From NCBI GenBank assembly GCA_015179045.1, contig WHUZ01000140.1, positions 36,470 to 100,469 on the forward strand: a DNA stretch of 64,000 bases. The letters run 5' to 3'. The notes beneath the pieces are model-generated. The model made no database searches, had not been told where the DNA came from, and was given only the letters and a program-made list of their open reading frames with translations. Below are positions 417-62,080 of this stretch, one piece after another. A program made the position numbers and the translations under genes. Source of the stretch: Kalaharituber pfeilii. Taxonomy: Eukaryota; Ascomycota; Pezizomycetes; Pezizales; Pezizaceae. Position 1 is the first letter of the stretch. Every line of letters starts with the position of its first letter.

Positions 417-480
417 TCCCTGCCATAGGCTGGTGGTCTGTACGCGGGGTTATTGTGACCCCCCCTACCACCCCAAAAAG
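417..480 (+). mobile_element. Hairpin-only retroinsertion (type B), copy 1
   Basis: A 64-bp insert lies between perfect direct repeats CCTATCACCTA (406-416 and 481-491). It starts one base before the hairpin foot: CCCTGC at 418-423 pairs with GCGGGG at 444-449 (one T-G wobble), with an inner stem AGGC/GTCT. The 3' end (CCACCCCAAAAAG) is only weakly A-rich. The same hairpin ends the large LINE at 61379. The target-site duplication shows retroposition; the LINE as the source of the machinery is inference. Confidence 0.75.
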
Positions 481-599
481 CCTATCACCTAACAAACTCA
501 GGGTAACAACCAAAAAAATCTAAGCACGTGCCGACCAATCCAACCCAGTCCGCGCAAAGTAACTCTTGGCTCTATAATAGCTTAGAACTACATTTTTAT

Positions 600-1110
600 T
601 ATGTACTGATGGGTTAGCTCACAGGCTCTCATTGACCTGCTCCACACGCCCCACCCCTCCCTACCCAGAATTCCGCTTCCATCTGTGTAGCATGCCATCC
701 AGCCTTGACTCTGAATTTTCAGGTCCCCACATCGCCCCGTGTGCGTCTTTATCTCTCGGGCCCTTATAGCCCATTATTGGGATTGGCTTCTTCCATTCCA
801 GGTTACCTCTGAGAGCTGACTCCTCTCCTGTCCTAACCTCCTCTTGGAGCCTTAGCACTCTGCCTTGCACTCGCGCTCTCTCGCCTTCTACAAAGGTGCA
901 GATTAGTACCAGATTGGCCAGTCCCTCCACGTCGTCTCGTCTCGTATCCCATGCGCATTGTGTGATCTTTCTCGCTACCGTATATTCCCATGCCTGCATC
1001 TTCTCTAGGTGTCCAGTACTGTGTTCTACCGGGATATTGCGCACAACTGGGATATTGAGCACTTCGGAACATGAAAAGGTTTGCAGTAGTGCCTGCAATT
1101 CATGTGCGAG
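600..1110 (-). mobile_element. LINE 3' fragment, degenerate
   Basis: Read on the minus strand, about 145 codons stay open. They contain AWEYTVARKITQ, DTRRDDVEGLANL and TFVEGERARVQGRVLRL. These match, residue for residue in many places, the region just upstream of RNase H in the LINE copy at 34984-36739 (RWQYTVARD, GTRRDIVEGITNL, TFVAGEQDRVEARTLRF). It is therefore a piece of ORF2 between the reverse transcriptase and RNase H. No active site is present and no ends were recognised. It lies inverted relative to the LINE copy that follows. Confidence 0.6.
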
Positions 1111-1740
1111 CCCTATGAAACTTTAGGATAATGGTTTTAACATATTGTGAAATATATCCTGCACCTCAATTTGCATGACATGGTGTAGTTGTTGGAGGAA
1201 GGACGGAGTCTTGATTAATTGAAGTTCGAGACCTATTTATAATTGAGATCTCGAGTACAAAGAGAATATAGATATTTCCAAATAAGGAATGGAAATACAA
1301 GTCACGTGTATTTAACTTGATGCTCACATGACTTTGGAAAATATCTAGAAGTATTAAGAGTAAAGAGCGTAGAGGCAGAAACATCCAGAATACATGATGT
1401 ATGACAGACGAATACATGACGTATGAGAGAACTAGAAAGTGGTAGAACATTACAGAATGATATAGAAGAATAAAGCCTGGTGGAAAGATTGGACGTTGCA
1501 CTATACCATTTTCAACAGTAGTGTACTGAGATATATCTAATTAGGCAATAGAGAACCTCTGCTTATAAAATTAGACACAGAGCAGCTAGATCACCGATGA
1601 GTTTAATTACACATTACCATGTGCCGGTGATCCTATATACCAAGTTTGGTGCTGACATGAGTATTGGAGCAGAAGTACCGACTGAAAATATTCGGAAATA
1701 GCAGCAACTGACCGAGGCCATATTCTCGATCACCGGACAG
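1111..1740. other. Noncoding stretch
   Basis: I see no supported gene, RNA or repeat with recognisable ends here. Open frames are short and lack recognisable domains. It separates the minus-strand LINE fragment from the 5' part of a plus-strand LINE. Confidence 0.4.
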
Positions 1741-2744
1741 GCTATTGGGAAGCGGAAAAAACCTACAAATCACCCTTGGCCCGGCGGCCTCGGAGGCGAC
1801 ACTCGAATACGGGGGACAGCACGGACAACGACACAGTCGAAGAAAGCGACACTTTCGAACGGATTTCAGCTCACTCACTTTCGCCCTCATCCTCAACGAA
1901 CCCTCAGCGACGACACACCTCACTCAACACCCCAGGCCGCCAAAGCAAGAAAGTCTTTGAGCTCCTGGACTAAGATGGAGGCCGAATTAGTCATATTGAA
2001 GAGCACCTACAGTACAATCAAGGTGAAAGCGACGATACCAGACACATACGATTCAACAATCACGGCCCAGGCCAAATTGGAGGGCACTGTCAGGGGAAGG
2101 TGAAGGTGGCACCGGGAAAGGGTGCATAACTGGAGGGCACTGGTTGCCGGATTGGGAAGGAATGCTGCGGGTAGCCGGGGAGGTGTTCTGCCCTTCTCCT
2201 GAAGAAGGACACCTAAGAATATACAACATCTCATCTTTTCGTTGTGGCTCCTGCGTAAAGGTGACCCACAATAGGCACAATCCTGGACACTTACGAGGAC
2301 AGCTCAGACGAGGAGGGCTCGGTAGCTACAGTGGTACCAGAAACATAGGCACCACAAAGGGGTACAGACACTGGCGGGGACAACTCCGAATTCACGGTAA
2401 TACCCGCAATGAGATATCAGCCAGCGACGACAGAACCGCGCCTGGGAACAGAGCCTAGCGGAGGTTTATACACACACCCACCTCTCCCCAACATCGCACC
2501 CAACGTGACCCCATCCTCGAGCACACAAGTGCAAGCATACAGACCAGGCACCCACTCAGGGCTGCCGACTATGTGATCCCGGAGTTTACACCATACGGGG
2601 CAGACTGGGACGACGTCATGTGGTGGAGACAGGAGAAAAGGAGAAAGAGGCTGAGGAGAGGGCCAGGCGAGCTGAGAAAGAGTAGAGGACGATATTGGGA
2701 TAGCGAAGGGCCCTAGTCAGGGCCTGGACCAGGGGGGAGTAGAA

Positions 2745-4480
2745 ATGGAACAAGAGCTGGAAGAGAAAGCATCGCTGGATAGGTATACAAGAGAAGGGCT
2801 AGTAAGAGCAATGTGGGGACTGTTGGGTGAGGCCTACGACCAGGTAGAATGGGAAGAGGAAGAGAAGGCTGAAAAGAGATGGTACCCAAGTAAGAGAGAG
2901 GTGCCAGCCCGTATCGACACCATGGCCAGCGACCACAGGGCTACTACAGGCCTGATAGTAAACTTTGGAACGATTTCGGAGGATTCAGAGAGGATTCTCA
3001 GAGACAGATGGCTGAGGTCAAAGCCCAGCTTGACGGGCTCAAGGAGAGACCAGCGCCAGAAACAACACCCATGCCAGCAGAGAAGCAAACACGGTTTCAA
3101 GACCCAGTAGCACCAATAGCAGCCCCAGCGGCAGTAGCCACCTTCGAGACCATGGCAGAAGCGGGGAAGATGGAAGGCCTTGACTTCGGTGGGATGGACG
3201 ACAGAAGACATGCAGCAGAGACAAAGAGACTGAGATGTGAGGAAGCACAAAAGGGAAATGAGAACAAGGGGAGGGAAGGGAGCAGAGGCCTGCAAGTGCT
3301 GCAAGAAGAGACAGAAGAGCATTCGATGGAGTGGACACCGACCCCGGCCCCTAATGTCCCACGGACTGAAAAGCAACCAACTCAAGCATCCGGCGACATG
3401 CCAGCCGAAAACGAGCCAGCTTTTAACAGCCCGAAAGCCCAACCTTCCCCATCACCTGGGGCCCCGAACGGACCAAAAGGAACAATACAGGATAGGCCAC
3501 ATACGACCACACACCGAAAGGGTACAACTCCAGCCACGAAGGCCAACCCAGGCCCCAAGCCTGCAGTAGGCTATGGCAAGCTAGAGTTTTCGGAACCCAA
3601 AACTGGATGGAGATAAATGAGCTTCCAAACTCTCGGGAAGTCAGAGAACACAGAGAAAAGATGAGGGTCAGAATTAGTAAAGGCCTAGGAACAGAAGCCC
3701 CATACCGAGTAAGGGACACAGTGCTAGACCCAAACTTTCCAAGGGAGACAATCCTCCTCATGGAAGACACGCAATTCAAGACCGGTGAGGAAGTTAGCAC
3801 CACTAGAAAGTGTAGTCAGGGGAGGACACCTATACCTGAAGGTAGACTAGAACCACAGAATGGTTGAACTAGTCACATTCAACATTAACACGAAGAAATC
3901 CCTCTAGAGGCTAGAAAAGGATCTTAGAGTCGAAAACCCCGATGTCCTTTCTGGAAGGTCCGTGAGAAGACTAGCAGATTACCAGATCCCAGTCAAAGCA
4001 GCAAACAAGGCAGTCTTCATGTTCGTCTCAGATGGTGTAATAGAACTACTGAAAGCAGGTTTTCTCTTCAGAGGTACAAAGATCAAGATAAGGCTCAGAA
4101 CAGACTTGGAGAACGAGAAATCTGGAAGCGCAAGAAGATATAGATATACTGTAGTTAGTGACGCAGTTGTTAAGTTTTCCTTTTAAATAAACCCTCGCCA
4201 TAGCCCATAGGGCGGTATGCGAGTATTGATATAAAAAATAATAATAATAATAATAAACAAAAGATATACAGCACCAGGCAGATACTGCAGACATTTTATC
4301 ATATGCCAGGTTATAGAATAGATACCCAAGCAATGATACCTCCCCGACTGGCTCAAAGGCTCTCCACGTAGACGGGAATACGAGGAGGCGATGAACCTGA
4401 ATAAGAAACCCTTTGCAGAAACATGCCAGTGCTGCGGAACAAAAGGAAGACATGAGAGAGAGTGCAAGAGAGCCAACACA
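2745..4480 (+). pseudogene. LINE ORF1 (Gag-like) remnant
   Basis: Open stretches in different frames (2745-3110, 3008-3616, 3607-3867, 3962-4142, resuming 4261-4480) are rich in Glu, Lys, Pro and Gln. They end in a Cys/His motif at about 4421-4465, C-x2-C-x5-H-x3-C in spacing, followed by basic residues, as expected of the nucleic-acid-binding C-terminus of a LINE ORF1 protein. The frames do not join without shifts. The 4143-4260 insertion splits the segment just before the knuckle: upstream SARRY and downstream TAPGRYCRHF join in frame if it is removed. Confidence 0.55.
4143..4260 (+). mobile_element. Short LINE-tail retroinsertion (type A hairpin)
   Basis: This 118-bp insert sits between AAGATATA copies at 4135-4142 and 4261-4268. 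It carries about 50 bp of 3'-UTR-like sequence, then a type A hairpin at 4194-4223 (CTCGC/GCGAG outer stem, GCCC-ATA-GGGC inner stem), then an A/AAT-rich tail. The host ORF1 frame reads through if one repeat plus the insert is removed. The 8-bp repeat alone is modest evidence; the restored frame strengthens it. Confidence 0.65.
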
Positions 4481-4514
4481 TCCCCGCCCGAGAACACCAG
4501 GGTCTGCAAGAGAG

Positions 4515-5043
4515 GCATGTTAAAGATCGCATGCTGGAATGTAGAAAGGTCGGCGATATGTACGGATCTGGTATTGCAGGAGGCAGCAGATGATAAAGTA
4601 GATATTGTTTCATAAGAGAGAACTGGAGAGCACCAGGAGGGGGAATGACTTTTCATCCATCATATACACCCAAGGAGGACAGGAAAGTGGCAGCTTATAT
4701 ATGGAAAGACAGGGTAGACGGCTTAAGGGTCCATGGCCAGGGTGGATATATAGTACTGGAGCTAAGAGAGAGGCGGATAGCAGGAGTCTACTGGAACAAA
4801 GAGACAAAGATTCAAAAAGAGCTAGAAGAAATAAGTATGGTAGACATAGTCATAGGAGACTGCAACAGCAATGACAGAGAATGGTCGAGCAAACATGACA
4901 CAAGGGGAAGAACGCTTAGGGAAAAGCTGGAGAGTATCGGACTAACCCAGCAGATCAGAAAGGGAACAATAACTTGGACCCCAGTTGTCGAAGGTATAAC
5001 GAGAAATGCACTACTGGGCCTAGTATTCACCAGGTCTAGAGAC
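4515..5043 (+). pseudogene. LINE endonuclease (EEP family) remnant
   Basis: The start MLKIACWNVERS is the usual N-terminus of an apurinic-like endonuclease. VDIVIGDCNSNDREWSS matches the block around the catalytic Asp/Asn (GDxN), and ITWTPVVEGITRNALLGLVF corresponds to the C-terminal T-W-x-x-x-G...DLVF block. Stops and frame changes occur near 4612 and 4645. The enzyme would nick target DNA for reverse transcription; this copy cannot make it. Confidence 0.6.
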
Positions 5044-5294
5044 TAAGCCAAGGCGGGACCACATAGATTGCCTGCTCAGATCATGCCATGGTCAAAGGAA
5101 GACTGCATTAGGTAGTCGAGAACACAAGAACAATTATAATCACGAACTGAGAAAGATAGGAGGAGTTTGTAGACAGGTGGAGTGACATACTACTAAGAGA
5201 GGGGATGAATGGATATGAGATACTGAAGACCTCAGTAGCCAGTTCATGAAGCAAGCCAGAATCAGAGAGGTCTAAGAGATAGTTTGATAAGGAG

Positions 5295-5967
5295 GTGAAG
5301 GAAGCAAGAAAACAGGTTTTTTTTTTTTTTTTTTTTCACGTGACCCCGCGTGCAGCTTTCTGCCATGGCAGGGCAAGAAAACAGGTAAAGAGTATCCTGC
5401 AGAAGAACATTGGAGCGTTTGCGGAGGGCAGAACGAGAGCATGGAGACTACTAAAAGAGATAATAAGAGACAAGAAGAGGACCTCTGGAAGGAATACCTG
5501 GAGGGGGATAAGGTCGAATCGCTATGGGATGTCTTTAGGCTTGCACTGGGCCCTTTCTGCCAGAGAGACCTAATACGTGTTATAGGTACGGACCAGGAGG
5601 TACGGACCAGGAGGTAGCTGAGCTATTTATTGAAAGGAACTTCATTATAGCAGATACGGCCAACTGGAGACCTATGCCACACCCAATAGGACTCCTCCTA
5701 GATCACGAGAAGGCAAGTAAGGAAATTGACAAGACTCTTAATAAAACAAAGTCAAGAGTAGCTCCCGGTCCAGACAATGTACAGTACGGCCTCCTAAAGC
5801 TCCTAAAAAGCACCACTGGGAAGTAGTCAGGGAGAAAATCGTGGACTACATAAATAGGGATTGCAGCTTTGCGAGAGGTTTCGACTTAGTGATGATACTC
5901 AAGAAGGGCAGAGACAGCCGTGAGGTTAGTAGCTGGAGGCCCATCATACTTCTCAATATGGTAGAGT
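5295..5967 (+). pseudogene. LINE reverse transcriptase N-terminal remnant
   Basis: After removal of the insert at 5317-5372, the frame reads KEARKQ then VKSILQKNIGAFAEG and TRAWRLLKEIIRDKK, the linker ahead of RT. Further on are APGPDNVQYGLLKLL and ILKKGRDSREVSSWRP, RT blocks 1 and 2. The match ends at NMVE (5967). The palm with YxDD is missing, so this is a broken copy. Confidence 0.6.
5317..5372 (-). mobile_element. Hairpin-only retroinsertion (type B), copy 2, inverted
   Basis: A 56-bp insert is flanked by a perfect 13-bp direct repeat, GCAAGAAAACAGG (5304-5316 and 5373-5385). On the minus strand it reads CCTGCCATGGCAG, AAAGCTGCACGCGGGG, then TCACGTG and an A-tract of about 19. It starts at the hairpin foot (the first C is shared with the repeat) and contains nothing upstream of it. 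The inner stem GCAG/CTGC differs from other copies on both sides. It interrupts LINE ORF2, whose frame is restored without it. Confidence 0.85.
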
Positions 5968-8385: not shown

Positions 8386-8620
8386 TTAGACTCGGAGGAA
8401 GGTGGTTGCGGACAAGTGTGTACGAGACAGATAGAGGAAGGAAATAGGAAGGTCACTGGGGTTATCTCTCCGATTTTTCACCCGCAGCAAGTACGAATTC
8501 CGCGGCACCACATGTATTTAGCCGCTTGCTCTTATTCTTTCGTTCTTTAATTTCAATAAAACACCTCGCCATAGCCCATAGGGCGGCATGCGAGTAATGA
8601 AATAAATAAATAAAAAAAAA
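8386..8620 (+). mobile_element. Truncated LINE/SINE-like insertion with type A hairpin tail
   Basis: A 235-bp insert lies between perfect 12-bp direct repeats ACCAGGCGCGAG (8374-8385 and 8621-8632). Its 3' end carries the hairpin CTCGC...GCGAG at 8565-8594 with inner stem GCCC-ATA-GGGC, then AATGAAATAAATAAAT and an A-run. Unlike the hairpin-only inserts it keeps about 180 bp upstream of the hairpin, with no recognisable coding part. It is a 5'-truncated LINE or a SINE. Confidence 0.75.
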
Positions 8621-10041: not shown

Positions 10042-10074
<33 letters not shown>

Positions 10075-11520: not shown

Positions 11521-11524
11521 CCCC

Positions 11525-34983: not shown

Positions 34984-35152
34984 TTTTTTTTTTTTTTTAT
35001 TTTTTTTTTTTTTATCATTACTCGCATGCCGCCTGAAAGGCTATGGCGAGGTTTAAGTAAGTAAGTACATACAGGTGAAAAAATAGGAAATATTAAGGTA
35101 ACATTGGCATGATAACTCTGCTAGTCCTGCCCCGCCCATGTCAAGATTTCCG

Positions 35153-36250
35153 TCAAAAGGTCCCTTCCTCCCCCTCTTCCTTCCCCTTTGTCTTCGGCGG
35201 CGTTTTCAGGTCCTCTAGTCCTCCAGGTATTCTTTTCTTCCATGCCGAGCAGGCCGTCGTGATGTGGCTCAGGTTTTCCAGTGCCCGTCCGCACCATCGG
35301 CATTCAGGCGAGTCTGCCTTCCCTATCTTGTACCTCCATTCCCTGAGCCCCTTGTTTCCTAGTATGCCTGCCAAGGTGGCCGTCAAATGTCTTCTCCCTA
35401 GCCTTTGTAGTGGTGGATACGCGAGCTTCAGGCGATTTCTCTCCTCTGCTCTGTAGGCTCTCATTTGTTGTCGTATGCCCGCCTCGGTGACGATTTCGTC
35501 CTGGTATTGAAGGGCGGTGCCGACCTTCGCAGCCTTGTCTGCTTTGGTGTTGCCTGAGATGCCGACGTGTGCTTTGATCCAAAGGATGGCCAGGTCGTGA
35601 TCTCCGTTTGCGGTTCTGGATTCCCATTTCTCCCTGACCGCTTGTGCTGAACCGTCGGGGGTTGGGTCCCCTCTGGATATGCTTTGCAGCTTGGCTATTG
35701 CTGTCCTGGAGTCCGTGAGTATCAGAAGTTCCCCGGGGGTGTCCATCGCGTGGCTTATAGCTATCAGCTCGCCGTCATTCACCGTGCTCCTATGTCCGAG
35801 GTAGAAGGAGGAGTCTGTGTCTGTGTTCTGTTGTACTACCCCTGCACCTGTGATACCGTCCATGCGGCTGCCGTCTGTGTATATGCTAATCCAGTCTTCG
35901 TCCTCTTCTCTGCCAATTATGTTTTCCCATTCATTTGACGTCAGATCGCGTGGGTGGAAAGAGTGGATGTGTATGGGAAGGGGATCTCGGTGGATGAGTG
36001 ACCCTCTCAGGTATTGTGTGTCTGGCTGAGGTTTCCGGAAAGGTTCACGTTCGAAGCGTAGAGTACGGGCTTCTACCCTGTCCTGCTCACCAGCCACAAA
36101 TGTTTGGATACTCTCCAGATTGGTAATGCCTTCAACGATGTCTCGCCTGGTGCCCCAGGGTGCTCCGGAGATGTCCCTGGCCACCGTGTACTGCCATCTT
36201 TCTAGTTGTCTCATTTTATGTTCGGATGGGGAGCCTTTGGCATAATCCAC
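35153..36250 (-). pseudogene. LINE ORF2 C-terminal part: RNase H and zinc knuckle, still open
   Basis: A 365-codon frame without stops. RNase H active-site blocks are all present: SIYTDGSRMDG (Asp), NDGELIAISHAM (Glu), LILTDSRTAIAKL (Asp) and WIKAHVGISGNTKADKAAK (His/Asp). After a linker with PPLQRLGRR comes the C-terminal knuckle CRWCGRALENLSHITTAC (C-x2-C-x8-H-x4-C), as in Tad1-like LINEs. The 5' part (endonuclease and RT palm) is missing through truncation, so it cannot move by itself. Lack of stops suggests it is the youngest LINE copy in the window. Confidence 0.8.
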
Positions 36251-36380
36251 CCAGGCCCAGCTTCCATATGTGGCGATGTTTCTGGCTATACAGTAAACGA
36301 GTACTGGGAATGAGGGTAAGGCTGGAAGGAAGTGTGATTAGAAATGGATATTTGGTCGGCCAGCAGTATAAGAGGCGGTG

Positions 36381-36989: not shown

Positions 36990-37565
36990 TATCCTTGAGA
37001 TGGAATGCCCAGTGACCTCCCAGCAGAGGACCCACGGGTGGTGAGCAAAGGTCGGCTGTATCCCTGACCCGCTCATAGCGTATCGAGTCGAAAGTGCACC
37101 GAGCAAGAGAGAGACAGGTTGGGCCTGAGTCATAGACCACTGCAACGGCTAGTGGGGCAGACGGTCACGCTGGCAGGACTACTGGGGGAACAGGTCTCAG
37201 AGCCCGGGGATACAAAGTGGGCAAAGGCGAAAGCCCAGGGTGCCGGTGGTGCGGGGAGGGAGAAGAGACAGCAGAACACAACTGGGAAGAATGCAGAGTC
37301 TGGAGGCAGAAGTGGCCTAGGGGAATGGAGGCGAAGAATGAACGAAGGTGAAGGAGGGCGGAAGAGACCCCTTGGTCCAGTTGATGAAGTGGGTGGAGCG
37401 ATGAGTGTTCTTCAATTTTCCCTTTGTACCTAGTGACCCGAACGTGCTTACCGTGTTTTTGTGATTTTGGTACTTTTTAGTTAGCTATCCCCTATGTGTC
37501 TCATATCTCGCCATAGTCTGTAAGGCGGAATGCGGGTAATGATATTAGAAAACAACAAAAAAAAA
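36990..37565 (+). mobile_element. LINE 3' end with type A hairpin tail
   Basis: The plus strand reads CTEQERDRLGLSHRPLQRL (37093), then, in another frame, CRWCGEGEETAEHNWEEC (37240), the same C-terminal knuckle as in the 35 kb copy. A 3' UTR follows, then hairpin 37507-37536 (CTCGC/GCGGG outer, GTCT/AGGC inner, changed on both sides relative to other copies) and an A-rich tail to about 37572. Much of the rest of the element is missing. Confidence 0.65.
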
Positions 37566-40513: not shown

Positions 40514-42072
40514 TCAGCTTTACGGCTTAACTATGTAGCACCGGGCAGGGTAGGCTTCCCGTTTGTATCAGCACCTCAGATGGTCATTGGTGCCAAAGCC
40601 GTCGACTCTTGCATCAACTACCAGCTTCGGAAAATTCCACTGAGCATGGGGTTCGTTTTTTTCTCTTTTTTTGTGGGGGAGCACGCATACAAGCTACCTA
40701 CCAGCCTATGGCAGAGGTGAGAATGCGGTTCCAGACGAGGAAGATATTGTGGCTAGCATTACGGAGGAATATATTGTTGACCACTGTCTTCAACGTGAGG
40801 TGTTTCCTCGACGGTATAGACAAAGGTATAGACAGTACAAAAATGTTGCCAAGGGAGTAGGAAACACAGGCGGACGGAGGTTGCGCCTTGGCAGAGGAGA
40901 CCCAGGAGCACAAAGTTACTGGGGTTGGTGAACCTTCTGTGGAATAAGTCGATTCAAACAAATCCATCATGACTACCCAGTTATCGGAAATTATGAATCT
41001 CGTTAGATCGGAGAAATTCACAAAGGAGAAGGGTGTTCTAACCTTAGCCTAGTTCAGGAACACTGTCTATTCGTCGGTCCCAATCTTGTAGAGGGTAATG
41101 ATAATGGGATCCCCAGTACTTGCGACTGCTAAAATTGTTCTGCTAAAGAATCTGTTGTGTTGGAGGGAAGCTAAACACTGGTTGAGTTATGCCCACATGT
41201 GACATCTATGTAGCATCAACGTACAACGTTTTCCCTGCCATAGGCCAGTAGCCTGTATGCGGGGAACGTTACGTGACCCAGAATAAAAAAAAAAAGAAAA
41301 AGAAAAAGAGAAAAAAAAACGTACAACGTTTTCAGTTGTCGAGATTTGCTTCACTATACTTCTATATCCGCTGCTGTCATGCCCTATCTTGCTTGACCAT
41401 ACTTGTTCCTTCTGAGATCTCGATGGCTGAAATGTACTTGGGGGTGCGGGAATGTCTGGCGAATTATCCAGCGTTAAGGTATTGATGTGCAGTTTCCGAG
41501 TAGGTACCTAAGCTAGACTGGTACGTACCTCGCTGCTATGTAGCTCGAGAATGTAAAGACTTAGTGGACAAAAATACAAACATGTAGCCGCACAACCGGT
41601 CCTACCTGAAAAACTCTCAACCTGAAATTCTATAGAACACACACCAAAAAAAAAGACCACCAACATCTGCTCAGGAGACTCTTGCAATTGTAAGACCACG
41701 TAATATATAAACTAAATATGTTGCTATAGTACAAGAAATACATACAGTGACCGGCCTCCCGACTGGGAGGGGTGCTGCAGGGAGGAGGTACCGGTAGAGG
41801 ATCACGCCGTAGTCAGAAATAGCATACACGGCTCCCTATGGAGAGGTGTGGGGGGGTGGCGTATGGGGGAGGTGTGGCGCTCTATCAAACCAGTAGAGAA
41901 CTATAGCTATCAAGCTGGCAAATATTTGAAGGGCTATTGAGTTGACGAAGAGCTAGTTATTGTATGTAGTCCATTGTTTACTATAGTATTTACTGGTGTA
42001 GTTCATCAGTTTTGAGCCTACTTACTGTAAACTACAGTTCGCTGTACCAACGTAGTACCTAGCCAGTTGCAC
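40514..42072. other. Noncoding stretch
   Basis: No supported gene. An 86-codon frame at 40671-40931 (VPDEEDIVASITEEYIVDHC inside) is unassigned. The segment contains one hairpin-only retroinsertion (41234-41317). Confidence 0.4.
41234..41317 (+). mobile_element. Hairpin-only retroinsertion (type B), copy 3
   Basis: An 84-bp insert lies between perfect 16-bp direct repeats AACGTACAACGTTTTC (41218-41233 and 41318-41333). It begins CCTGCCATAGG at the hairpin foot (first C shared with the target). The inner stem is AGGC/GCCT and the outer 3' arm GCGGGG. Then come AACGTTACGTGACCC and an A-rich tail with AAAAG units. Nothing upstream of the hairpin is included. Confidence 0.88.
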
Positions 42073-45426: not shown

Positions 45427-47542
45427 ATGACTTTTATCAATGATCAACACGGAGGCAAGCCGCTGACATACTTATGTACAGCCGCCCAACGGCAAAGAGC
45501 CTCGCTCAGTGATGACACTTTACGTCTAGCACATCACCGTCCAGGTCCCACATCGAAGGTGACCTTCCGAGTGGCTAACTTGGATCCCGAAAACTACTAT
45601 GGCAAGAAACGTAATGACTGGGAACCATCAGAGAAGAAAGTCAATAGAACTTCTCAACAGATTCTCACCCTTGTCGACAGAGATGCCCGGGAGCAATGCA
45701 AAGAGATAGTATACTCATCACTCGACCCCCACAAAAACCACACCAATCTTATCCCCGCGAAAAATGGGTTTGTCGGAGCTGTCATTCGTGCATACGCTGG
45801 CCACTTTCACCTCGAGATACGCCCTGATGATGTCTGGATCGCGATTCTGACGCAGCTTTCCCTCTTCATAAACGCAGACCCAGAAAGGTTTCGTGGCAAG
45901 TTTGTCGCTTTCGAGGGGAAAAGGAATCTTACCGTTGTTGCAATTGGCAGTCGTGCGACACTCAACTATGGTTTGCTGGCAGTTGAGATGGGTAAACTCT
46001 TGCAGGAGAATGTCGTGGATCCGGAGTTACGTGAGTGGATTGTTCCACAGTTTACAACAACAACCCTTGATGACACCATTGCAAGTTCAATGATCATGAT
46101 GTCGACGTTGAAGGAGTTTTTCAACTATGAGTTCAAGATTTTGTGCGGGATTCCAAGTGTTACGCTGCATGGTGAGAAGAAGGATTGGGAAGTGCTGTTA
46201 CAGAAGGTTGAGAAATTGAAGAACTACGGGTTGGAAACGACCATGTGGTACCACCTGTTGGAGCCGATTTTGAGTAGGTTTGTTAAGGCATGGGACGATC
46301 CGGAAGGCGAATGGAACCAGCAATTTTGGGCAAGGGTGGCGACAACCCAACGGCCAATTGGCCCCTGTGGAACCCCAAGATATATCACTGGCTGGATCAC
46401 GGCATTTATGCCATTCAATAATGAAGGAAAATGGCACTTAAAAAGTGCGCTCCCACATTTGATACCAGTAAGTGAGATGAAAGTATCTTCCTCTTAAGTT
46501 TCTAATTAGGATCCACTATTCTGCTATAACTAGTAGCATGAAATGATTCGATGTGTGATTCGAGATCATGATTTTTACTTCGTGATGTATATGTTCCTAG
46601 AAAAATGTTGACAGTCCCTTTGATAACGATGGAATGGTTGATGCTCACGATTTGAGAATCTAGGAATCCGACTATATGGCAAAAAAACGTACAGGAGGTA
46701 CGAGGAAGACCCCTTCGAAAAACCATAAACGAATCTACATCTCTAGAAACATGTGGAGGAATTAACTGACGGTATTGACAAATCCACGAGTACAGATATT
46801 GAGCCCGGTCCTACAGGGGATGATAGTTACAAAAAACTCACTAGGCATGAACTTATGTTCAAATACAATACGGCTGCGAAGGCTTATCCCGCTTCTGCCT
46901 TTCCTGTCTTTAGGGATGGCAAAGTGTCCGACCAACCACTCACAGTTCGCTATAGTGGCTTTGGCATTGAGGAACTTGGGGTCAGATCTTTGCGTGATCA
47001 GACGCGGTGGGGTAGAAAGGGAGACGTGGAAGGGGATTACACATGGTCGTCGATGCAGCTAGTCATTGATGGTAGTTGGTACCCACGACATCCAGATGAT
47101 GAGGTCCCACAGGCGGTAGTAAAAGTCGATGTTCATTTCAACGAGCACGGGCGAGAATTTGAGTCGTTGTTGGTTGTTGGAGTGATGGGGTATGAAGTTG
47201 AACAGATTGCCAAGTCAGGTGACAAAGAACAGAAGCGACAGCATACTCCCGCAATTAGGAACCAAATCCAAAGTGGCCCTCACCTTGTTCAGATTGCGAA
47301 CTCGTTTGTTGAACAGCTTTGTGATAATGATTCATCAGCACCAGTCAAGTGAGTTTTGATCCCATCCATCTGCAGCTCATGATTGAGACAAATTTTTCAT
47401 AGATCAAACCTTACTTACGTTCTAACCAAGTGACCCTGCCGGCAGCGGCCAATGTATTGATGATACAACTGCCGACTTTGAGAGTTCATTAAAGCCGAGA
47501 GTTGGCTGGTGGATTTACGAGAAGTGGGCACCGGAAGAGTGA
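45427..47542 (+). CDS. DUF4419-domain protein, 3 exons
   Basis: Exons: 45427-46467, 46747-47348, 47431-47542; 584 aa with consistent phases (donors GTAAGT and GTGAGT). The first intron is 279 nt, long for this window. Exon 1 carries the DUF4419 core: NGFVGAVIRAYAGHFHLEIR then PDDVWIAILTQLSLFINADP, FVPQ-like IVPQFTTTT, SMIMMSTLKEFFNYEFKILC, GIPSVTLHGEKKDWEVLL and GWITAFMPF. Exon 2 holds the later strand region (VKVDVHFNEHGREFESLLVV, GVMGYEV). Exon 3 ends LKPRVGWWIYEKWAP, the usual family C-terminus. An alternative fourth exon after 47539 would change the last residue and add about a dozen. The family is widespread in fungi but its biochemical role is unknown to me. Confidence 0.85.
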
Positions 47543-47774
47543 GCTCCCGTTTCTCCACTTACGTGCCCATTTATATGACTAATTAGGAAAAACCTCCGCC
47601 TAGGATTGCTGAAACGAAGGAGAAATTAGGAATGAGATCTAGACCGCAAACGAAAGGGAGAAGGAGGAAACCAAAACGTCCTAATCAAGTGCAAGACTGA
47701 GAAGTGACACTTTTACGGAGAGAAATATATATTTTGATTATGGCTTTTACGAGTTGACATAAGGAATGAGGACA

Positions 47775-47849
47775 ATTTTTTTTCATTTTTTTTTTCATTT
47801 TTTTTTTTCAATATCATTACTCGCATGCCGCCCTATGGGCTATGGCGAT
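47775..47849 (-). mobile_element. Hairpin-only retroinsertion (type A)
   Basis: A 75-bp insert lies between perfect 10-bp direct repeats AATGAGGACA (47765-47774 and 47850-47859). On the minus strand it consists of the hairpin at 47849-47820 (outer arms ATCGC/GCGAG with the first base shared with the target, inner GCCC-ATA-GGGC), TAATGATATTG, and an A-rich tail with ATG interruptions. It begins at the hairpin foot. It lies 233 bp downstream of the DUF4419 stop codon. Confidence 0.88.
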
Positions 47850-47859
47850 AATGAGGACA

Positions 47860-50559: not shown

Positions 50560-52582
50560 TAGTAAAAAGAGAAGTAAAATAATCTATATAGGATTCTGGA
50601 AGATCTTTCGTCATTTGCTTAAAGGTAGTATATGCTTGCTGGCAAACTTGACGAATTTTTTTGATTTTTTTTCTGATATCTGACTTCCGTAATTTATCAG
50701 ATTGACGTTTTCCTGTCCTCCCTTCCTTATATTCATTACCTCCTTCAAGTTTAATCACTTCTTGAATATGACGAGGAATTCGCTCAATCCATGATTGAAT
50801 TCTCCATTGTTCAAGATCCTTCCAAGCTTAGTATAGATATCAAAATTAGCTACTAATAGTATTAAACATTATATTGTATCTAATATACCTTAAGCCACAC
50901 TTTTTCAGCAGTAAGACGGCAAGTTAAAGGACCCTTCTTAGTTGTTGCTTGCTTCATATAAGCCCAACATGGTTCAATCATATTCAAGTCTGGAGAGTTG
51001 CCAGGCCAAATGAAACGTTCAATTTCTGAGACATCGAAGTAAACTCGTTGACGTTTGGAAGCATGAGAAGGAGCCTTATCTTCCATGACAGTAATATTTG
51101 GAATAAAGCATTTGGCAGCTTCAGCAAATGGAAGAAGTTTGGTAAGAAGAATTTCGTTTAAGTATCTATACCAATCAACTCCACCTTTGCTTTCCTCTCT
51201 AGAAAAAGCTCCGTTCTTCACATTAAATTTCCAGGTTGGCTTTCTCCCACCTAGAAGCAGCTGCAGAGTTAGTAGAAGCTATTACCGGGTGCAAAATTCG
51301 ACTGAAAAAACAGCTGCCAACCCGCGTGCAAAAAAGCTGCCTACCCGGGTGCAAGCCCGGGTGCAAAACAGCTGCAAAAATCGAATGAAAAAACAGCTGC
51401 CAACCCGGGTGCACAAACAGCTGCCAACCCGCGTGCAAAAAAAAGCTGCCAACCCGGGTGCAAGCCCGGGTGCAAAACAGCTGCAAAAATCGAATGAAAA
51501 AACAGCTGCCAACCCGCGTGCAAAAAAAAAGCTGCCAACCCGGGTGCAAGCCCGGGTGCAAAACAGCTGCAAAAATCCAATGAAAAAACAGCTGCCAACC
51601 CTGGTGCACAAACAGCTGCCAACCCGTGTGCAAAAAAAAAGCTGCCAACTCGGGTGCAAAATTCGAGTGAAAAAACAGCTGCCAACTCGGGTGCAAAAAT
51701 CGACTGCAAAATGCCTGCCAAAACGGCTGCTGTAAGAGTAGAAGAAATCTCCACACACTTACCTGTATTCCGAAGTCCCATTCTTCTCATCATAGTATTG
51801 AGTTCCCACTGTGTCTTGCACTCTTCCTCAATAGCAGTATTAATCAGATTCACTTCTTTTTCTGCCCGTTGCTTTTCCTTTTTGGTTTCTGGTTTCCAGA
51901 TATGACAAGGTCCTTTAAAGTCATATGTGAAGCATCCCCAGAACATGAACTCAGAGTATCCTTTCCACCGCTCTCGAACACAGGATTTAATGCAGACTTC
52001 ATGTGGCTGTCTCCATACCTTTAAGAATTTTGTTAGTTATTTTGCTTAGATATAAATATAGTAGCAACTTACCCTATAACTTCCTCTTCTATGCCCTAAT
52101 ACCACTGAAGTTTCATCTGTCCAAACCACTCGTTTCCAATCCTCAAGAGTCCAATGCTGATATCGTAAAGCAAACTGATAACGTGCTTCTCTCATTTCTT
52201 TTGTCAAGCCAGGCTTTCGTGTAGGTTTGGTTTTTCTGAATCCATGTTTTCGTAGTACCTTCCATGCGCTATAGCGAGATATATTAAATTGAACAGCTAG
52301 TGAACGAACTGACTTTTCCCGACCATAACGATCATACTTGATAGCCTCAATCAATTTTTGTTCCACCTCAGGTGTAATTTTTTTACGCCTTCCAGAGCGT
52401 GGGGTATCAATAACATGAAATGAAGAGAGAGGGGTTCCAGGATACCAGCCTCGTTCAAGTGCTTTATTATAAAGATTGGTAACCTGTCGAGAGGTAATTC
52501 CAGTTTGCCGCTGAATCTCAACAAGACACTCTCCTACTGCCTTCAAAATCACTGCTTGAGCTCTAGTTACAATATCAAACAT
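50560..52582 (-). CDS. Tc1-like (DDE_3) transposase with several introns
   Basis: Start ATG at 52582 (MFDIVTRAQAVI). Exon 1 is 52582-52073, exon 2 is 52018-51763, exon 3 starts at 51250. Intron 1 is 54 nt (GTAAGT...CTAAC...AAG). Intron 2 is 512 nt (GTAAGT...CTAAC...TAG). Helix-turn-helix segments (TGITSRQVTNLYNKA; SVRSLAVQFNISRYSAWKVL) precede the catalytic domain: VVWTDETSV (first Asp), FMFWGCFTYDFKG, TVMEDKAPSHAS (second Asp) and PGNSPDLNMIEPCWAYMK (third acidic residue). A further intron or shift lies near 50880-50820, and KDLEQWRIQSWIERI then a Lys-rich tail follows to about 50560. The exact 3' end is uncertain. It may still be functional. Confidence 0.78.
51290..51720. repeat. Minisatellite filling the transposase intron
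   Basis: Roughly 18 units of 22-25 bp around AAACAGCTGCCAACCCGGGT are organised in a longer period of about 110 bp. It lies wholly between the splice sites of transposase intron 2 and stays open on both strands. Confidence 0.85.
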
Positions 52583-53440: not shown

Positions 53441-53569
53441 AGAAATGCCCAGGAGCGAACTCAGCTTGCTGAGGAGCGGTGGGTTGATTACAAGCCGCAC
53501 AGGGCCTTTCTTCCCAATTAGGAAAAATGCCAAGACCTGAGGCTAGCATATCTACCATCTAACTCATTC

Positions 53570-54430: not shown

Positions 54431-54746
54431 GGGACTTTTCGAAGTTCTTCCCATACAAATTCTGGGAAGCGGGGGGGCTCGCGCCTGATTGGTGCCAGCA
54501 AAGCCCCGCTGGTGCTGACCTTTAGGACCGATTTCGAGCTAGTGTAGCAAAGACTTTGCGAACAGGTGCTAAATCGGCCGATCGGCAGCAGACGACGACC
54601 AAGAACAGAAGCGAGCTAGACGGCAGACCACCTTCGATTTTGGAATAGCGCACGGAGCTACTCCCAAAGCGGCGACTTCCCGAAAAAGGGAAGTTACAAT
54701 AGGAAGGCAGGAGAAGGAGGACAGGAAGAAGAGGAAAGGAAAGGAA

Positions 54747-57290: not shown

Positions 57291-57650
57291 CAAAGCCAGA
57301 AGAGGGAGAGGGTGGAGGAGACTCCGATGAAGAAGAAACAGGAGGAGGGGAGTAAGGCAGTGAAAGTGGAGGGGGGGAAGGGGAAGGGGAAGCAAGCGGA
57401 GGCGGGGGGAAGGGGAGGTGAAGTTTTCGGGAGTCCTGTCAGAAGACTGGGATGCGAAGGCGAGAGCTTTGGAGCTGGCGGAGTGGATGAAGGAGAGGAG
57501 GGGAGGAGAGAGGATGGATGTGGATGACAGAAGGGACATGGCGGGGTCTATGCATGCACCGGGGGTGAGGTTGGGAGATATTTTTGGGGACGGAGGCCTG
57601 CTTGATGAGGGGTGGGAAGCAGAGAGCAGCGGGGTACCCAGACCAGTATG

Positions 57651-60600
57651 GTGAAGGTAGGGTACCAGAATGTTGGGGGATCGTCGGTGGGGGGGCATGT
57701 GTGGAGGGAGACCATGTTCAAGGAAGGGTGGGACTTGGGCTTTAAGGGAGAAGTGTGGAAAAGGGAAGAAGTGGGGGATGGAAAGTGGGGGGGCACCCGA
57801 GTCTGAAGAGGATCGGGGGGGTCGGGAAGGAGACGAGGGTGGTAGGATGGGAGCGGAGAGAGGGGAGAGGGGGGAGGAGGGGCGACGGGAATATAGTATG
57901 GGGAGAGAGGGAGGGGGTGGCAGTAGGGGGGTATATGTGGACGGGAGATGGAGGAATGAGGAGTTTGAGAGGTGGCTGGAAGGAGTGCTAGAGGTGCAGG
58001 GCAGGTGCGTCCTAGTGGGGGACTGGAACGCGCACAGCCCGGCGTGGAGTCTGGAAGGGGTGGAGGAGAGTGGGAGGGGCAGGATTCTGAGGGAGAGGAT
58101 GGAGGGGGCTGGCTTCACCTTGGTGGGAGAAAGGGAAGCAACGTGGAGGAGGAAGTGGAGGGGAGGTTGAGAGAGTCGAGGATCGACTTGGTGTGGGTAA
58201 GGGGAGTGACGGTGGACCGGGTGGGCCTGGATGGATGTGGGGTCGGACCACTCGGGGCTGGTGGTAGAATTCAGGGGAGAGGGGGAGGTGGAAGAAGGGA
58301 GAACAGGGTAGTGAGGGTTGACTGGGAGAGGATGGAAGAGGAGGTAGAGGGGTGGGGGGGGGAGTGGGGGAGGAGGAAAGGAAGGAGTGGTTGGAGAGGG
58401 TGGGGGGAGGGACCGCATACGAGAGGCTGAAAAGGTGGAAGAGGTCCCTAGAGAAAGAGGTGAGAGTGGGGGGGAGGAGCAAGAGGTGGTGGACGGAAGA
58501 GATAGAGGAGATGAGGAAAGAAGTCAACAGGCTGGCACGGGGGGGGATAGGGGCCAGAGCGAGGTTGACGGAGGGGGAGAGGGTGAGGGGTTGGAAGGCG
58601 GCGGTGCAAAGGATGAAGTGGAAGATCCGGGAGGAGAAGAAGAAGTGCTGGAGGGAGTTCGTAGAAGAGGAAGGGTATAGCGGCCCGTGGAGGGTGGTGA
58701 GGGTGGCGAAGGACCCTTTCGGAGGAAAGGAGAGGATGGGAAGGTTGAAAGATGAGGAGGGGAGGGAGTTGGAGGGGGACGGAGAGAAGGTGAGGGCGCT
58801 GGTGGAGAGGAATTTTGCGTGGAGGGAAGAGGGGGAGGCAGAGGCGGGGGAGGAGGTGGGGGAGGGGGAAGCGGAGGAGGAGGGGATGAGAGGGAGAGGG
58901 AGAGAGTAGAAGGAGAAGTGAGGGCTGCGCTGCAGGGCACCAAAAACAATTCGGCACCGGGACCCGACGGAATCGGATACCGATTGATCAAAGCTGCCCT
59001 GAAGACTCCCATCGGGGATGAGTTAATGAGGGAGATCGCCGAAAACTGGATCCGGAACAGGACCCCAGCGGAGTGGAGAGAGATGAGGGTCGTCATGATA
59101 CCGAAGCCGGGCAAGGACATCAAGACGGCGAAAGCGTGGAGGCCAATCAACCTGATTAACTGTATCGGGAAGATTGGGGAGAAAGTCATGGCCAGCAGGC
59201 TACAGAAAGAAGACCGACTCTTCCACAGGCTCCAGCTGGGAGCACGCAAGGGGAGGAATGCGATCCAGGCGATGGCGAGGGCGGTAACAAAGGTGCAGAG
59301 GTGCCTGCACAGGGGGGGAGAGCAGCGTGGGTGACGGCGGATGTTAAAGGAGGCTTTAACATCGTGAGGAAGGAGGTGGTCCTGAGAAGGATTGAGGAGA
59401 GGGGAGCGAGGGGGTGAGAAAGAAGCGGAGGTGGCTGGAGGAGTTTATGGGAGGCAGGGAGTTCGGAGTGTGGTGGGACGGCGAGGAGAAAGGGAGGGGC
59501 AGGTCGAACGTGGGGGTTCCGCAAGGGTCACCACTGTCACCGGTCATCTTCCTCATCTTCATGGCACCCACCATTGAGAAGATGGAGAGAAGGCTGAGGG
59601 GGGTGGCGATGGGGGCGGAGGTAGAAGTGCCATCGTATGTTGACGACCTGGCAGCAACGATCCTAGACTGGCACGGGTACTGGGATATGGGGCGGCTCAG
59701 GGAGAAAGTGAAGGTGGCGATGGCGGAGGTGGCGGAGGAAGACCAGATCCCGCTGGAGGAGTCGAAGTGGGAGATGATAACCTTCGGGGTGGAAGGAGGT
59801 GGAAGAAAGAGGGGGAGATGCTAAAGTGGTTAGGGGTCATCTTCGATGAGAACTTGACCTTTGGCGCACATTGGCGAAACAGGCTGAGCCGAGCGCGGAG
59901 GCTGGCGGGGGCTCTCTCGGGACTGGGCAACCGGAACTGGGGGATGTCTCCACGCAGCTGGAGGCAAGCCTACACGGGGATGGTGAGGGCGGTTGCAATG
60001 TGGGGAAGCGAGATCGGGTGGAGGGGACAGAAGGAATGGAGGAAGGAGATGGAGAGAGTCCAGCTGCAGGTGTTGAAGAAGGCGGCTGGAGGAGGGAGAG
60101 GAGCGGGGGTAGGAGGGATGAGTGCGGTGTGTGGAGTGGAGGACGTGGAGACGGTCCTGGATGGCGCGCAAGCGAGGGCGATCGTCCGGGAGGTGGAGGC
60201 GCCGTCAGAGCTGGCGGAGCTTTGCACGGGCGACTTCGGAGGGAGCGAGGAGAGAGGAGGAGGCGAGAAACTGGAGAGACTGGGGGGTGCAGTGGGGCGG
60301 TGGTCGAGAATGAGGGGTATGAAGCAGTTCTGGACCGCTGGCAAGGTCAGTGGGCAAGGTTCTCGGAGGAGGGGGAGGAGATCTCGTGGGGAGGGGGGTG
60401 TAAGAAGGTGGAGGTGGAAGTGGTGGAGAGGCGGAAAGGAGAAGTGGAGACGAGGGGGAGTGGGAAGCCGCGATCGGGGAAGCCGGAAGAAAAGGGCAGT
60501 CCTTTTCTCCGACGGCAGCAAGATCGAGGACAGCAAGGTGGGAGCAGGGGTGTGGGGGAGGTCGGCAGCCGTGGCGGAGGTGGTGGGGAGAACGGCGACG

Positions 60601-61259
60601 GTGTTCGATGGGGAGGTGAGGGGAGTGAGAAAGGCGCTGGAGAGTGTGGAGGAGGAGGTCCCTGTACTGATCTGTTTAGATTCTGAGGCTGCCGTCATGG
60701 CGATCCAGAAGGCAGGCAGGGAGGGAAAGGGGAAAACCGAGGATGTGAGGAGAGTGGTGGATGCCGTGGCGAGGAAGAAAAGAAGGGAGGGGATGCGAAA
60801 CTGATGTGGGTCAAGGCTCACATCGGAATCGCAGGAATGAGAAGGCGGATGAGTGGGCGAAGAAGGGGACGGTGATGCAGGGGAAGGAGGTGGCCACCGG
60901 AAGTGGGGTGCGCCAGAGGGTGAAGGCGTGGAGGAAGGAGAAGAGAGAAGTGGAGGTTTGGAGGAGGAAAGGTCATGGAGTGGAATAGGATGCAGTATCC
61001 AATTTCACTGCCTTGCGCCTGGAGAGAGGGAGGTGTGCGTGTGGTTGAAGAGGATAGGGGCGGCTGAGTCGGATAAGTGCAGGTGCGGGGAGGTGCAAAC
61101 CGGGGAGCACTCGCTTTCCGATGCAGAAACCAGAAGAACCGTCCAGAAGGCTTTGAGAGGTGGGGCGACATGGAAAAGATTGGAAGAGAAAGGCGGAGAA
61201 TGGGGAGGAGTATGACGTTTTGGAGAATTTCTTCGCTGGGGTCAAGTTCTAGAAGGTAG
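57651..61259 (+). pseudogene. LINE ORF2: endonuclease, RT, RNase H, C-terminal knuckle
   Basis: The endonuclease starts MVKVGYQNVGGSSVGGHVW (57651), with CVLVGDWNAHSPAW (58010), SRIDLVWV (58175) and GSDHSGLV (58241). RT blocks are APGPDGIGYRLIKAAL (58960), MIPKPGKDIKTAKAWRPINL (59097), GVPQGSPLSPVIFLIF (59514) and catalytic SYVDDLAATILDW (59632). The thumb region has WLGVIFDENLTFGAHW (59828). RNase H has FSDGSKIED (60507), FDGEVRGVRKAL (60605), CLDSEAAVMAI (60676) and WVKAHIGIAG then NEKADEWAKKG (60808-60870, one-base shift between). The C-terminal knuckle is CRCGEVQTGEHSLSDAE (61080). At least six frame breaks; not functional as it stands. Confidence 0.82.
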
Positions 61260-61378
61260 GAGAATGCGGGGTCAAGTTCTAGAAGCTAGGAGAGCGGGGG
61301 CGACGGCGCGTGGGGGCCATGTACGTAGAGAGTTAGTTTAGCCTGTCTCCGGGCTATGAGGGCTTGCCCAGGGACCCT

Positions 61379-61408
61379 GCCATGGCCAAGTGCTACAAGC
61401 GGGGTTAT

Positions 61409-61439
<31 letters not shown>
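61379..61439 (+). other. Type B 3' hairpin and A-tail of the LINE
   Basis: CCCTGC (61377-61382) pairs with GCGGGG about 20 bases on. The inner arms TGGC/GCTA pair through one wobble. TTATGTGATTT and about 25 A follow. This links the hairpin-only inserts to a coding LINE. Confidence 0.75.
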
Positions 61440-62080
61440 CCAACCTCCCCAACCCACCTTCAGCCCACACAGTCACCTCGACAGCGGGGGCACCTCGAGA
61501 CCCCATCAGAGGCCTCCCACACTACGAAAATTTACCACCCGGACGCCACTATCCCCAACAACACACACTCGCCACTCAACATACCACCAACGCCACTCCG
61601 GCGCCCAGCTCCAATAGGCATCCACGGATAAGAGGCAACAACCAATCACAAAATGCCAAATGACAAGAAGACGGAAGGAAAGGACAACTGGGACAGCTTC
61701 GTGAAGGAACTGTTGATGAAAGAAGACGAGGCAAAGAAGCCCCAACCGCTAACACAGGAAAACCTCCGGAAGGCGACGGCGACGGCGACAAAGCAAAACC
61801 GCCACTCCACCAAAGACGGCCCCAAGACTAGACCCGTTCACAGTCGTCGCGAGGGCTGTCACGACGTATCTAAAGACAGAAAACAAAGGCAAAAGAGGGA
61901 CATTCATATACTTCGAGTATCTGGATGACCCAGACGACCCGGATCGCCATAGCCCACAGGGCGGTAAGCGATAAATGATATAAAAAAAAAAAAAAACCCG
62001 GTAGTCACCTGGGGAGACGCCGACGACGGCCGACCCAGGTGGGTGGAGAACAAAAGACAATTTTTCTGGCCCACCAGAGG
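61440..62080 (+). pseudogene. 5' region and ORF1 start of another LINE
   Basis: About 210 bp of C/A-rich leader precede ATG 61653 (MPNDKKTEGKDNWDSFVKEL, then LLMKEDEAKKPQPLTQENLR). After a shift near 61830 the frame reads LDPFTVVARAVTTYLKTENK and GTFIYFEYLDDPDDP. It continues in frame (VVTWGDADDGRPRWVENKRQ) past the 61943-61995 insert when that and one repeat are removed. It breaks off at about 62080 where another hairpin begins. ORF1 identity is by position and composition; there is no knuckle in this piece. Confidence 0.5.
61943..61995 (+). mobile_element. Hairpin-only retroinsertion (type A), copy in a LINE ORF1
   Basis: A 53-bp insert lies between ACCCGG repeats (61937-61942 and 61996-62001). 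It starts exactly at the hairpin foot: outer arms ATCGC (61943-61947) and GCGAT (61968-61972), both ends changed together relative to CTCGC/GCGAG, with inner GCCC-ACA-GGGC. AAATGATAT and about 16 A follow. The 6-bp repeat is short; the restored ORF1 frame supports it. Confidence 0.75.

Follow-up and report, generated by a model that had tools for sequence, protein, structure and literature searches.

The window analysed here, a 64-kb stretch of Kalaharituber pfeilii DNA (contig WHUZ01000140.1), contains five hairpin-only insertions, in which a LINE 3′ hairpin and a short tail are bounded by direct repeats, together with other hairpins of the same kind and the coding remnants of LINEs. The features are listed below (coordinates of the window, with strand).

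406–416 (+): 5′ target-site duplication of insertion 1, CCTATCACCTA, 11 bp, with its 3′ copy at 481–491
417–480 (+): hairpin-only insertion 1, type A hairpin at 419–455, C-rich tail
4194–4229 (+): type B hairpin, covariance-model match
5317–5372 (−): hairpin-only insertion 2, type C hairpin at 5337–5372, A tail of 20
8565–8600 (+): type B hairpin in an ordinarily truncated LINE 3′ end, with a 12-bp repeat ending 179 nt upstream
35015–35050 (−): type B hairpin, downstream of a LINE-remnant RNase H reading frame (35153–36337, minus strand)
37507–37542 (+): type B-like hairpin, covariance-model match
41234–41317 (+): hairpin-only insertion 3, type A hairpin at 41234–41271, A-rich tail
47775–47849 (−): hairpin-only insertion 4, type B hairpin at 47814–47849, A-rich tail
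61376–61411 (+): type C-like hairpin (E 0.0025), downstream of LINE frames 57661–60804
61943–61995 (+): hairpin-only insertion 5, type B hairpin at 61943–61978, A tail

Hairpin-only insertions and LINE remnants in the window

The five insertions, first recognised in a sequence-only reading of this DNA, are present at these positions with direct repeats of 11, 13–14, 16, 10 and 6 bp, and the units as inserted measure 53–84 bp. All five start within two bases of the hairpin foot, and the tails are A-rich in four and C-rich in insertion 1, both as that reading had claimed. In insertion 1 the first base is T, located one base outside the paired CCC. The repeats of insertion 2 (5304–5316 and 5373–5385) are 13 bp long, or 14 bp if one tail A is counted; the 16-bp repeat of insertion 3 has its 5′ copy at 41218–41233, and the 10-bp copies of insertion 4 lie at 47765–47774 and 47850–47859. 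For insertion 5, the 6-bp repeat ACCCGG (61937–61942 and 61996–62001) was read by inspection and is weak by itself, and a repeat search at lengths of at least 8 bp gave nothing there.

Ten hairpins were found in the window by the covariance model at E < 0.01, five of which are the hairpin-only insertions; the model was partly built from window sequences, which therefore match it by construction. The layout around the type C-like hairpin at 61376–61411 is the same as that of insertion 2. The frames at 57661–60804 give a reverse transcriptase (RT) match above the cut-off, with endonuclease-like (EN) and RNase H matches below it, the latter weak, and a clear RNase H match lies, in a LINE remnant, upstream of the hairpin at 35015. 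This putative EN-RT-RNase H layout suggests that these LINEs may belong to the Tad1/I-group clade.

The hairpin covaries across related LINEs. In an alignment of 24 hand-picked sequences, 97.8% of cells are paired and 31 cells are changed on both sides, compared with 11.2 in shuffles; the number of pairs with double-sided change (5 vs 3.7 in shuffles) is not unusual. In the minimum-energy fold of the type A LINE context, the upstream sequence pairs with the 3′ strand of the hairpin instead, so the small hairpin may not dominate in full-length RNA.

Position of the 5′ ends across the genome

The core-anchored sample of the K. pfeilii genome consists of 180 hairpin copies, namely 98 of type A (100 places listed, minus two in the window) and 82 of type B (of 100 listed). 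A target-site duplication (TSD) score of at least 7 was reached by 73 of the 180, compared with 13.25 per permutation. The even spread of 5′ ends, named beforehand as speaking against a shared start, did not occur: in 35 copies the TSD ends within 6 nt of the 5′ foot, where 0.25 were expected, and 34 of these lie within ±3 nt, the commonest position being −1. Among the other ends of the 73, 37 are scattered from −14 to −376 (9.25 expected) and one lies downstream of the foot. As to the other outcome named beforehand, a lack of direct repeats in most copies, repeats were found for these 73 of the 180; in long copies the search reached about 385 nt upstream, so that theirs could not appear, and imperfect old repeats escaped it. 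As to individual copies, the automatic TSD choice picked a worse match for L084, whose foot repeat came from a separate listing, and foot repeats visible by eye in L173, L029 and L123 were left out of the counts. In 36 foot copies the TSDs vary in length from 7 to 15 bp without the leading A, and the 3′ ends listed carry A-rich tails, with some C-rich or mixed ones besides.

Core-anchored sampling is blind to ends inside the hairpin; outside it, three ends of the 180 fall between −4 and −30 (−6, −14 and −24) vs the 34 within ±3. A tail-anchored sample is free of this bias. It takes in every place of its runs, 45 of type A and 37 of type B (82 in all): 12 copies start at the foot and 6 within the hairpin, 62 extend farther by about 55 nt or more, and two (L217 and L218) are unassigned. 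In L218 the repeat ends 5 nt before the nominal foot and is followed by altered sequence; this copy may start at the foot and have an altered hairpin, or start inside the hairpin and carry filler. No assigned end falls between −4 and −30, although 62 copies are longer, and 12 of the 18 assigned ends in the stretch from +24 to −30 occupy 6 positions (binomial 3e-8). Since the tail-anchored samples keep the peak, the foot peak is not due to core-anchoring bias. Four of the in-hairpin copies (L203, L214, L216 and L195) have repeats scoring at least 8, and those of L191 and L202 are weak. The stops on the 3′ side that had been predicted for a blocked RT do occur, at the loop or past it (6/82), but they are rarer than the foot group and separate from it.

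The boundary can be placed most finely in type A. Of 41 type A copies that lack LINE sequence upstream, 38 retain the LINE base at −1 and 6 that at −2. Together with the nested counts below, this confirms a common start at the 5′ foot that recurs across the genome and is sharp to one nucleotide in this type. These 41 include L016, L024, L100, L103 and L105, whose upstream sequence is shared with other copies, and one duplicated pair (L019/L020); L100 is hairpin-only by score, and its hairpin is degraded. In the TSD-selected type A copies T stands at −1 in 14/16 and G at −2 in 1/16, compared with 47/47 for both bases in long copies. Nested whole-genome counts at positions 0, −1, −2 and −3 are 208, 201, 147 and 135, that is, the main drop comes at a single step, and the 12 of the next step are about what a chance G at −2 would give. 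In type B, base −1 is C or T in 18/20 hairpin-only and 39/39 long copies; because it is mostly C in both classes (14/20 and 28/39, respectively), addition of a T does not by itself account for the retained base. The boundary of type B is looser than that of type A, with TSD ends from −3 to +2. The upstream sequence of type A differs from that of type B, so no common upstream motif sets the stop. Upstream secondary structure was also considered as the block and rejected, in that type A has an ACCC/GGGT complement and the upstream sequence of type B is, on inspection, A/T-rich and unlike it, so that a single block of this kind would not account for both types.

Explanations for the fixed end

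Something cuts or stops copying near the outer edge of the hairpin in K. pfeilii LINE copies. The copies are flanked by repeats, several LINE subfamilies yield them, and what was copied reaches just to the outer margin of the first stem, which in type A means the single unpaired base preceding it. They are products of target-primed reverse transcription by LINEs, and the source LINEs look like the stringent type, whose RT recognises the 3′ hairpin. The likeliest reading, itself no more than quite possible, is that the template is an RNA 3′ fragment whose 5′ end is set at the helix edge before copying; the one-nucleotide start in type A fits a template with such a discrete 5′ end. This template would comprise the hairpin and a short tail, about 45–80 nt. 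Its 5′ end might be set by a structure-sensing nuclease at the helix edge, or the hairpin bound by RT might be shielded while the remaining LINE RNA is degraded from the 5′ side; RT would then run off the template end. Exonucleases that stall ahead of a structure tend to leave a few nucleotides there, more than the single one kept in type A, which counts against this reading, as do the looser ends of type B and the alternative fold of the type A context. That LINE RNA is cut or protected 1 nt outside the hairpin, so that a discrete RNA of about 45–80 nt serves as a regular retrotransposition template, is put forward a little more tentatively.

It is rather unlikely, though worth weighing, that the end is set by release of RT, which would lose its anchor after the last base pair has been opened and copied, so that some enzymes leave an intact longer RNA. 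The six in-hairpin ends among 82 show that enzyme-level failures happen in the same stretch, which is at the same time a point against an RNA-fragment template, and truncation is rare just past the foot (0/82 between −4 and −30; 3 in 180). Binding of the cognate stem-loop by the tail-binding region is known, in the available text of PMC4176376, from stringent LINEs of zebrafish. However, loss of the anchor would be expected earlier, once the 3′ strand of the stem opens, and not at the 5′ foot, and one templated base in 38/41 is sharper than loose dissociation suggests.

Trimming of the cDNA appears improbable. Here a longer first strand would be made, the RNA removed by the LINE RNase H, and the folded cDNA cut back to the hairpin edge by a flap nuclease or 3′ exonuclease prior to sealing of the 5′ junction. 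The window does contain a reading frame for an RNase H domain upstream of one such hairpin, and a helix edge gives an identical boundary on DNA, the minimum-energy cDNA stems stopping near it in three examples; but these cDNA folds are weak (−6.1 to −8.2 kcal/mol, z −0.95 to −1.84).

To a like degree it is doubtful that the hairpin-only copies are a retroposon lineage in their own right, descended from separate master copies and moved in trans by LINEs. The sequence-only reading had proposed a minimal non-coding retroposon, and as a single independent element this is not supported by the kinship of the hairpin-only bodies: 13 of 36 are identical to a long LINE copy, for 31 no other hairpin-only copy is closer than a long one, 5 are closer to another hairpin-only copy, and variants of loop and tail known from several LINE subfamilies recur among them. 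Because the 13 identical bodies match several subfamilies, repeated production from LINE RNA is favoured over one SINE lineage. The tails of type A speak for a partly self-standing lineage as a possibility, since tails rare among long copies are frequent there: GTGACC occurs in 8/41 copies without LINE upstream vs 2/57 with it, the common GTGAAT in 5/41 vs 34/57, and other tails in 21/41 vs 9/57; older LINE subfamilies with decayed long copies would explain these variants equally well. By eye, among the matches listed, variant loops look commoner in copies without LINE upstream.

As for a Pol III head, ARAGORN found a tRNA in one of 60 loci (two of which extend just about 110 nt upstream). This tRNA, at L100, shares the strand of the hairpin but lies some 205 nt upstream of it and is not adjacent, so tRNA-headed SINEs were rejected. 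Rfam gave no match in 40 loci, mostly those without a foot repeat or with an unclear boundary, and fusion of known small RNAs to the foot was rejected on this result. Relatives in viral contigs were also set aside: the one match, L227, lies in DNA that on inspection resembles bacterial coding sequence, and was attributed to chance.

It is hardly credible that 5′ truncation is simply random and that chance or search bias produced the excess at the foot. Scattered ends do exist (−14 to −376), and core-anchored sampling cannot register in-hairpin ends, but random truncation is contradicted by the persistence of the tail-anchored peak and by the nested genome counts.

Comparison with known elements and significance

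In the available text of PMC4176376, stringent LINEs with a 3′ stem-loop include UnaL2, ZfL2-1 and ZfL2-2, and LINE/SINE pairs are given in the Tad1 clade. K. pfeilii resembles them in its short covarying stem-loop ahead of the LINE 3′ end; recognition by the LINE protein is a feature of stringent LINEs that the K. pfeilii hairpins may share by analogy. According to the same text the stem-loop is a recognition signal there, whereas here the insertions are the stem-loop alone with a fixed 5′ end. Mg-SINE and SINE2-1_BG, which have LINE-derived 3′ tails and are listed with a tRNA origin in the part of PMC3747384 available, are likewise non-coding and have a LINE 3′ end in common with the present copies, but the latter show no promoter-bearing head and match several LINE subfamilies. 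The Magnaporthe LINE MGL, as described in sections of PMC2104539, has template-switch hot spots with breaks near predicted hairpins, and is thus also a fungal LINE in which reverse transcription breaks at specific sites; its breaks precede GCC motifs and produce chimeras in which a second RNA takes part, whereas the copies of K. pfeilii end at the outer edge of the hairpin and are joined to target DNA. Ordinary 5′-truncated LINE copies have the machinery, tails and TSDs in common with the hairpin-only copies, which differ from their scattered ends in a single sharply fixed 5′ end. The open-licence literature searched, as far as its available text goes, gave no account of LINE insertions that are reduced to the hairpin and share a fixed 5′ end; similar copies may be hidden in other genomes, where their shortness may let them slip past repeat finders.

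The K. pfeilii copies are a natural record, near nucleotide resolution, of the point at which LINE copying stops with respect to the element presumed to be recognised by RT. With them it becomes directly testable whether the enzyme or the template RNA determines 5′ truncation. They also offer a natural minimal substrate for the LINE machinery, namely hairpin and tail. If the RNA-fragment template is true, an exceptionally small mobile unit would exist, for which hairpin and tail are sufficient and which would be renewed by each LINE subfamily.

Hairpins of the window and their fold

Ten hairpins were found in the window at E<0.01 by a covariance model search, in which the training set consisted partly of the window's own hairpin-only copies. 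Five of the ten are hairpin-only insertions, that is, a LINE 3′ hairpin plus a short tail, and they belong to three hairpin sequence types (A, B and C):

417-480, hairpin-only insertion, type A
5317-5372, hairpin-only insertion, type C
41234-41317, hairpin-only insertion, type A
47775-47849, hairpin-only insertion, type B
61943-61995, hairpin-only insertion, type B
8565, ordinary truncated copy, whose repeat ends 179 nt upstream
35015, hairpin with an RNase H frame upstream
61376, hairpin with upstream frames giving reverse transcriptase, endonuclease-like and weak RNase H matches
4194 and 37507, covariance model matches, start not assigned

Direct reading of the window confirmed the sequence of the five hairpin-only stretches as first described. 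The direct repeats (target-site duplications, TSDs) said to flank all of them were recovered by script in four cases, at 11, 14, 16 and 10 bp; the fifth, of 6 bp, is visible on reading, although it lies under the script's limit and is weak taken alone. As for the RNase H frame, the best 18 of its 23 relatives come from Kalaharituber pfeilii. Elsewhere in the window, a DUF4419 protein frame is located at 45427-46497 (forward strand), and this genome encodes several proteins related to it. At 51067-51786 the frames on both strands repeat one short peptide-like unit, which suggests a tandem repeat.

In 24 sequences drawn from types A, B and C, 97.8% of cells are paired in the two-stem hairpin, which includes an internal loop, against 29–44% in slid controls. 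Five pairs were changed on both sides, which is not unusual against 3.7 in shuffles, while the cells changed on both sides numbered 31 against 11.2, a value reached by 0 of 500 shuffles; since the sequences were hand-picked for diversity, this result speaks for structure and not for rates. For the 3′ end of the type A LINE, represented by copies resembling locus L026, a longer alternative fold of lower energy is predicted, in which bases upstream of the foot pair with the hairpin 3′ strand.

It has been established in stringent LINEs of zebrafish that the 3′ stem-loop is recognized, and LINE/SINE pairs are cited for the Tad1 clade too (PMC4176376). In a fungal LINE, template-switch hot spots lie close to predicted hairpins (PMC2104539). 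PMC4245944, whose text lacks the term stem-loop, deals with the 5′ junctions formed when LINEs insert de novo; SINEs carrying LINE tails are tabulated in PMC3747384, and an Aspergillus SINE carries a Tad1-like LINE end (PMC5063351). Insertions of the hairpin alone are not described in the available parts of these five papers.

Distribution of 5′ starts in the genome

The core patterns of types A and B gave 400 and 541 genome matches, against 1 and 0 in reversed controls. From 100 places listed per type, taken by contig order whatever their upstream sequence, 180 core-anchored copies (98 A and 82 B) were obtained. A repeat score of at least 7 was reached by 73 of them, versus 13.25 per permutation, where flanks taken from different copies were paired. 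The repeat ended no more than 6 nt from the foot (the 5′ edge of the hairpin, position 0, with negative positions outside it) in 35 copies (0.25 expected), elsewhere upstream in 37 (9.25 expected) and downstream in 1; 34 ends fell within ±3 of the foot, and three between −4 and −30.

Because the core patterns are blind to ends within the hairpin, 82 tail-anchored copies were added, namely the first 45 of 147 type A places and the first 37 of 744 type B places, six of the latter having only about 110 nt of upstream sequence. Foot starts were found in 4/45 type A copies (L068, L084, L111 and L122, with L084 assigned from a separately read repeat) and in 8/37 of type B (L037, L054, L131, L213, L220, L221, L222 and L223). 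Starts inside the hairpin occurred in 2/45 (L191 and L195) and 4/37 (L202, L203, L214 and L216), all six at the loop or past it, the calls for L191 and L202 being based on weak repeats and the missing 5′ half of the hairpin. An upstream extent of at least about 55 nt, by similarity or repeat, was seen in 62/82, and two copies (L217 and L218) have no assigned start. In L218 the repeat ends 5 nt ahead of the nominal foot and altered sequence follows; a stretch of about 22 nt, altered or foreign and either changed hairpin or junction filler, separates the repeat from the hairpin 3′ half (GCGGCATGCGAG). Six positions hold 12 of the 18 resolved tail-anchored ends within +24 to −30 (binomial 3e-8).

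Precision of the boundary

In type A long copies, which carry LINE sequence upstream of the hairpin, position −1 is T and −2 is G in 47/47, while of 16 repeat-selected hairpin-only copies 14 show T at −1 and one shows G at −2. Splitting the 98 type A copies independently of repeats gave 41 that lack LINE sequence upstream, 56 that have it and 1 intermediate. Those 41, which amount to about 35 independent hairpin-only cases since five share upstream sequence with other copies and one pair is duplicated, include 38 that keep the LINE base at −1 and 6 that keep it at −2, and agree with the LINE in 36 to 41 copies at positions 0 to +5. Whole-genome exact counts of the intact type A stem were 208, falling to 201 with T at −1, 147 with G at −2 and 135 with G at −3; by our arithmetic, drops of 54 and then 12 would be expected if roughly 70 copies end at −1 and the next base is G by chance one time in four.

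The same boundary exists in type B but is less sharp: −1 is C or T in 18/20 hairpin-only and 39/39 long copies, and LINE resemblance is absent from the hairpin-only copies from −3 outward. As C occupies −1 in 14 of these 20, the kept base is templated and does not come from an extra A on the cDNA.

Origin and mechanism of hairpin-only copies

Bodies were compared from foot to A tail in 36 hairpin-only copies, of which 35 qualify by score and the other is L084. Thirteen are identical to a long copy, the identical bodies spanning six loops of type B and one of type A; in 31 a long copy is at least as close as any other hairpin-only copy, and in 5 the nearest is another hairpin-only copy. This pattern fits repeated production from LINE RNA. 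The type A tails count against it: GTGAAT is present in 5/41 copies without LINE upstream versus 34/57 others, and rare tails are commoner in the 41, a skew that could come from decayed long copies of older LINE subfamilies or from a partly separate lineage. Variant loops, and C-rich or GTGACC tails, are common in type A without LINE upstream (for example L019, L063, L087, L099, L116, L118 and L123) and rare in long type A, and either of these two sources could account for them.

Three type B copies (L035, L057 and L175) are apparently inserted inside another type B hairpin, their TSDs consisting of the host hairpin's own sequence (the 5′ flank of the central hairpin). In L070, LINE similarity extends upstream from the hairpin for about 56 nt, but a direct repeat of 13 nt is found 329 nt upstream, possibly reflecting a chimeric or nested insertion. 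On the same strand as the degraded hairpin of L100, a tRNA-Ile is predicted about 205 nt upstream.

A plain hairpin block should leave ends on the 3′ side of the hairpin, where the sequence-only reading had expected a blocked reverse transcriptase to stop. Such stops do occur (6/82), but as a separate group; the ends at the outer 5′ edge form another class and need another cause, whether an RNA end, lost enzyme anchoring or cDNA trimming. Types A and B have different upstream sequences, so no shared upstream motif fixes the position, and the factor common to both types is the helix edge. Release of the reverse transcriptase, its anchoring lost at the outer hairpin edge, is a rather unlikely source of these ends, the one-nucleotide sharpness in type A favouring a predefined template end. 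Trimming of the cDNA back to a folded edge is improbable, given that the hairpin cDNA folds weakly. The best reading, tentative and with a little under an even chance, is run-off at a predefined template end: the 5′ end of the template RNA would already be set at the helix edge before copying, and the reverse transcriptase would then copy to that end and run off.
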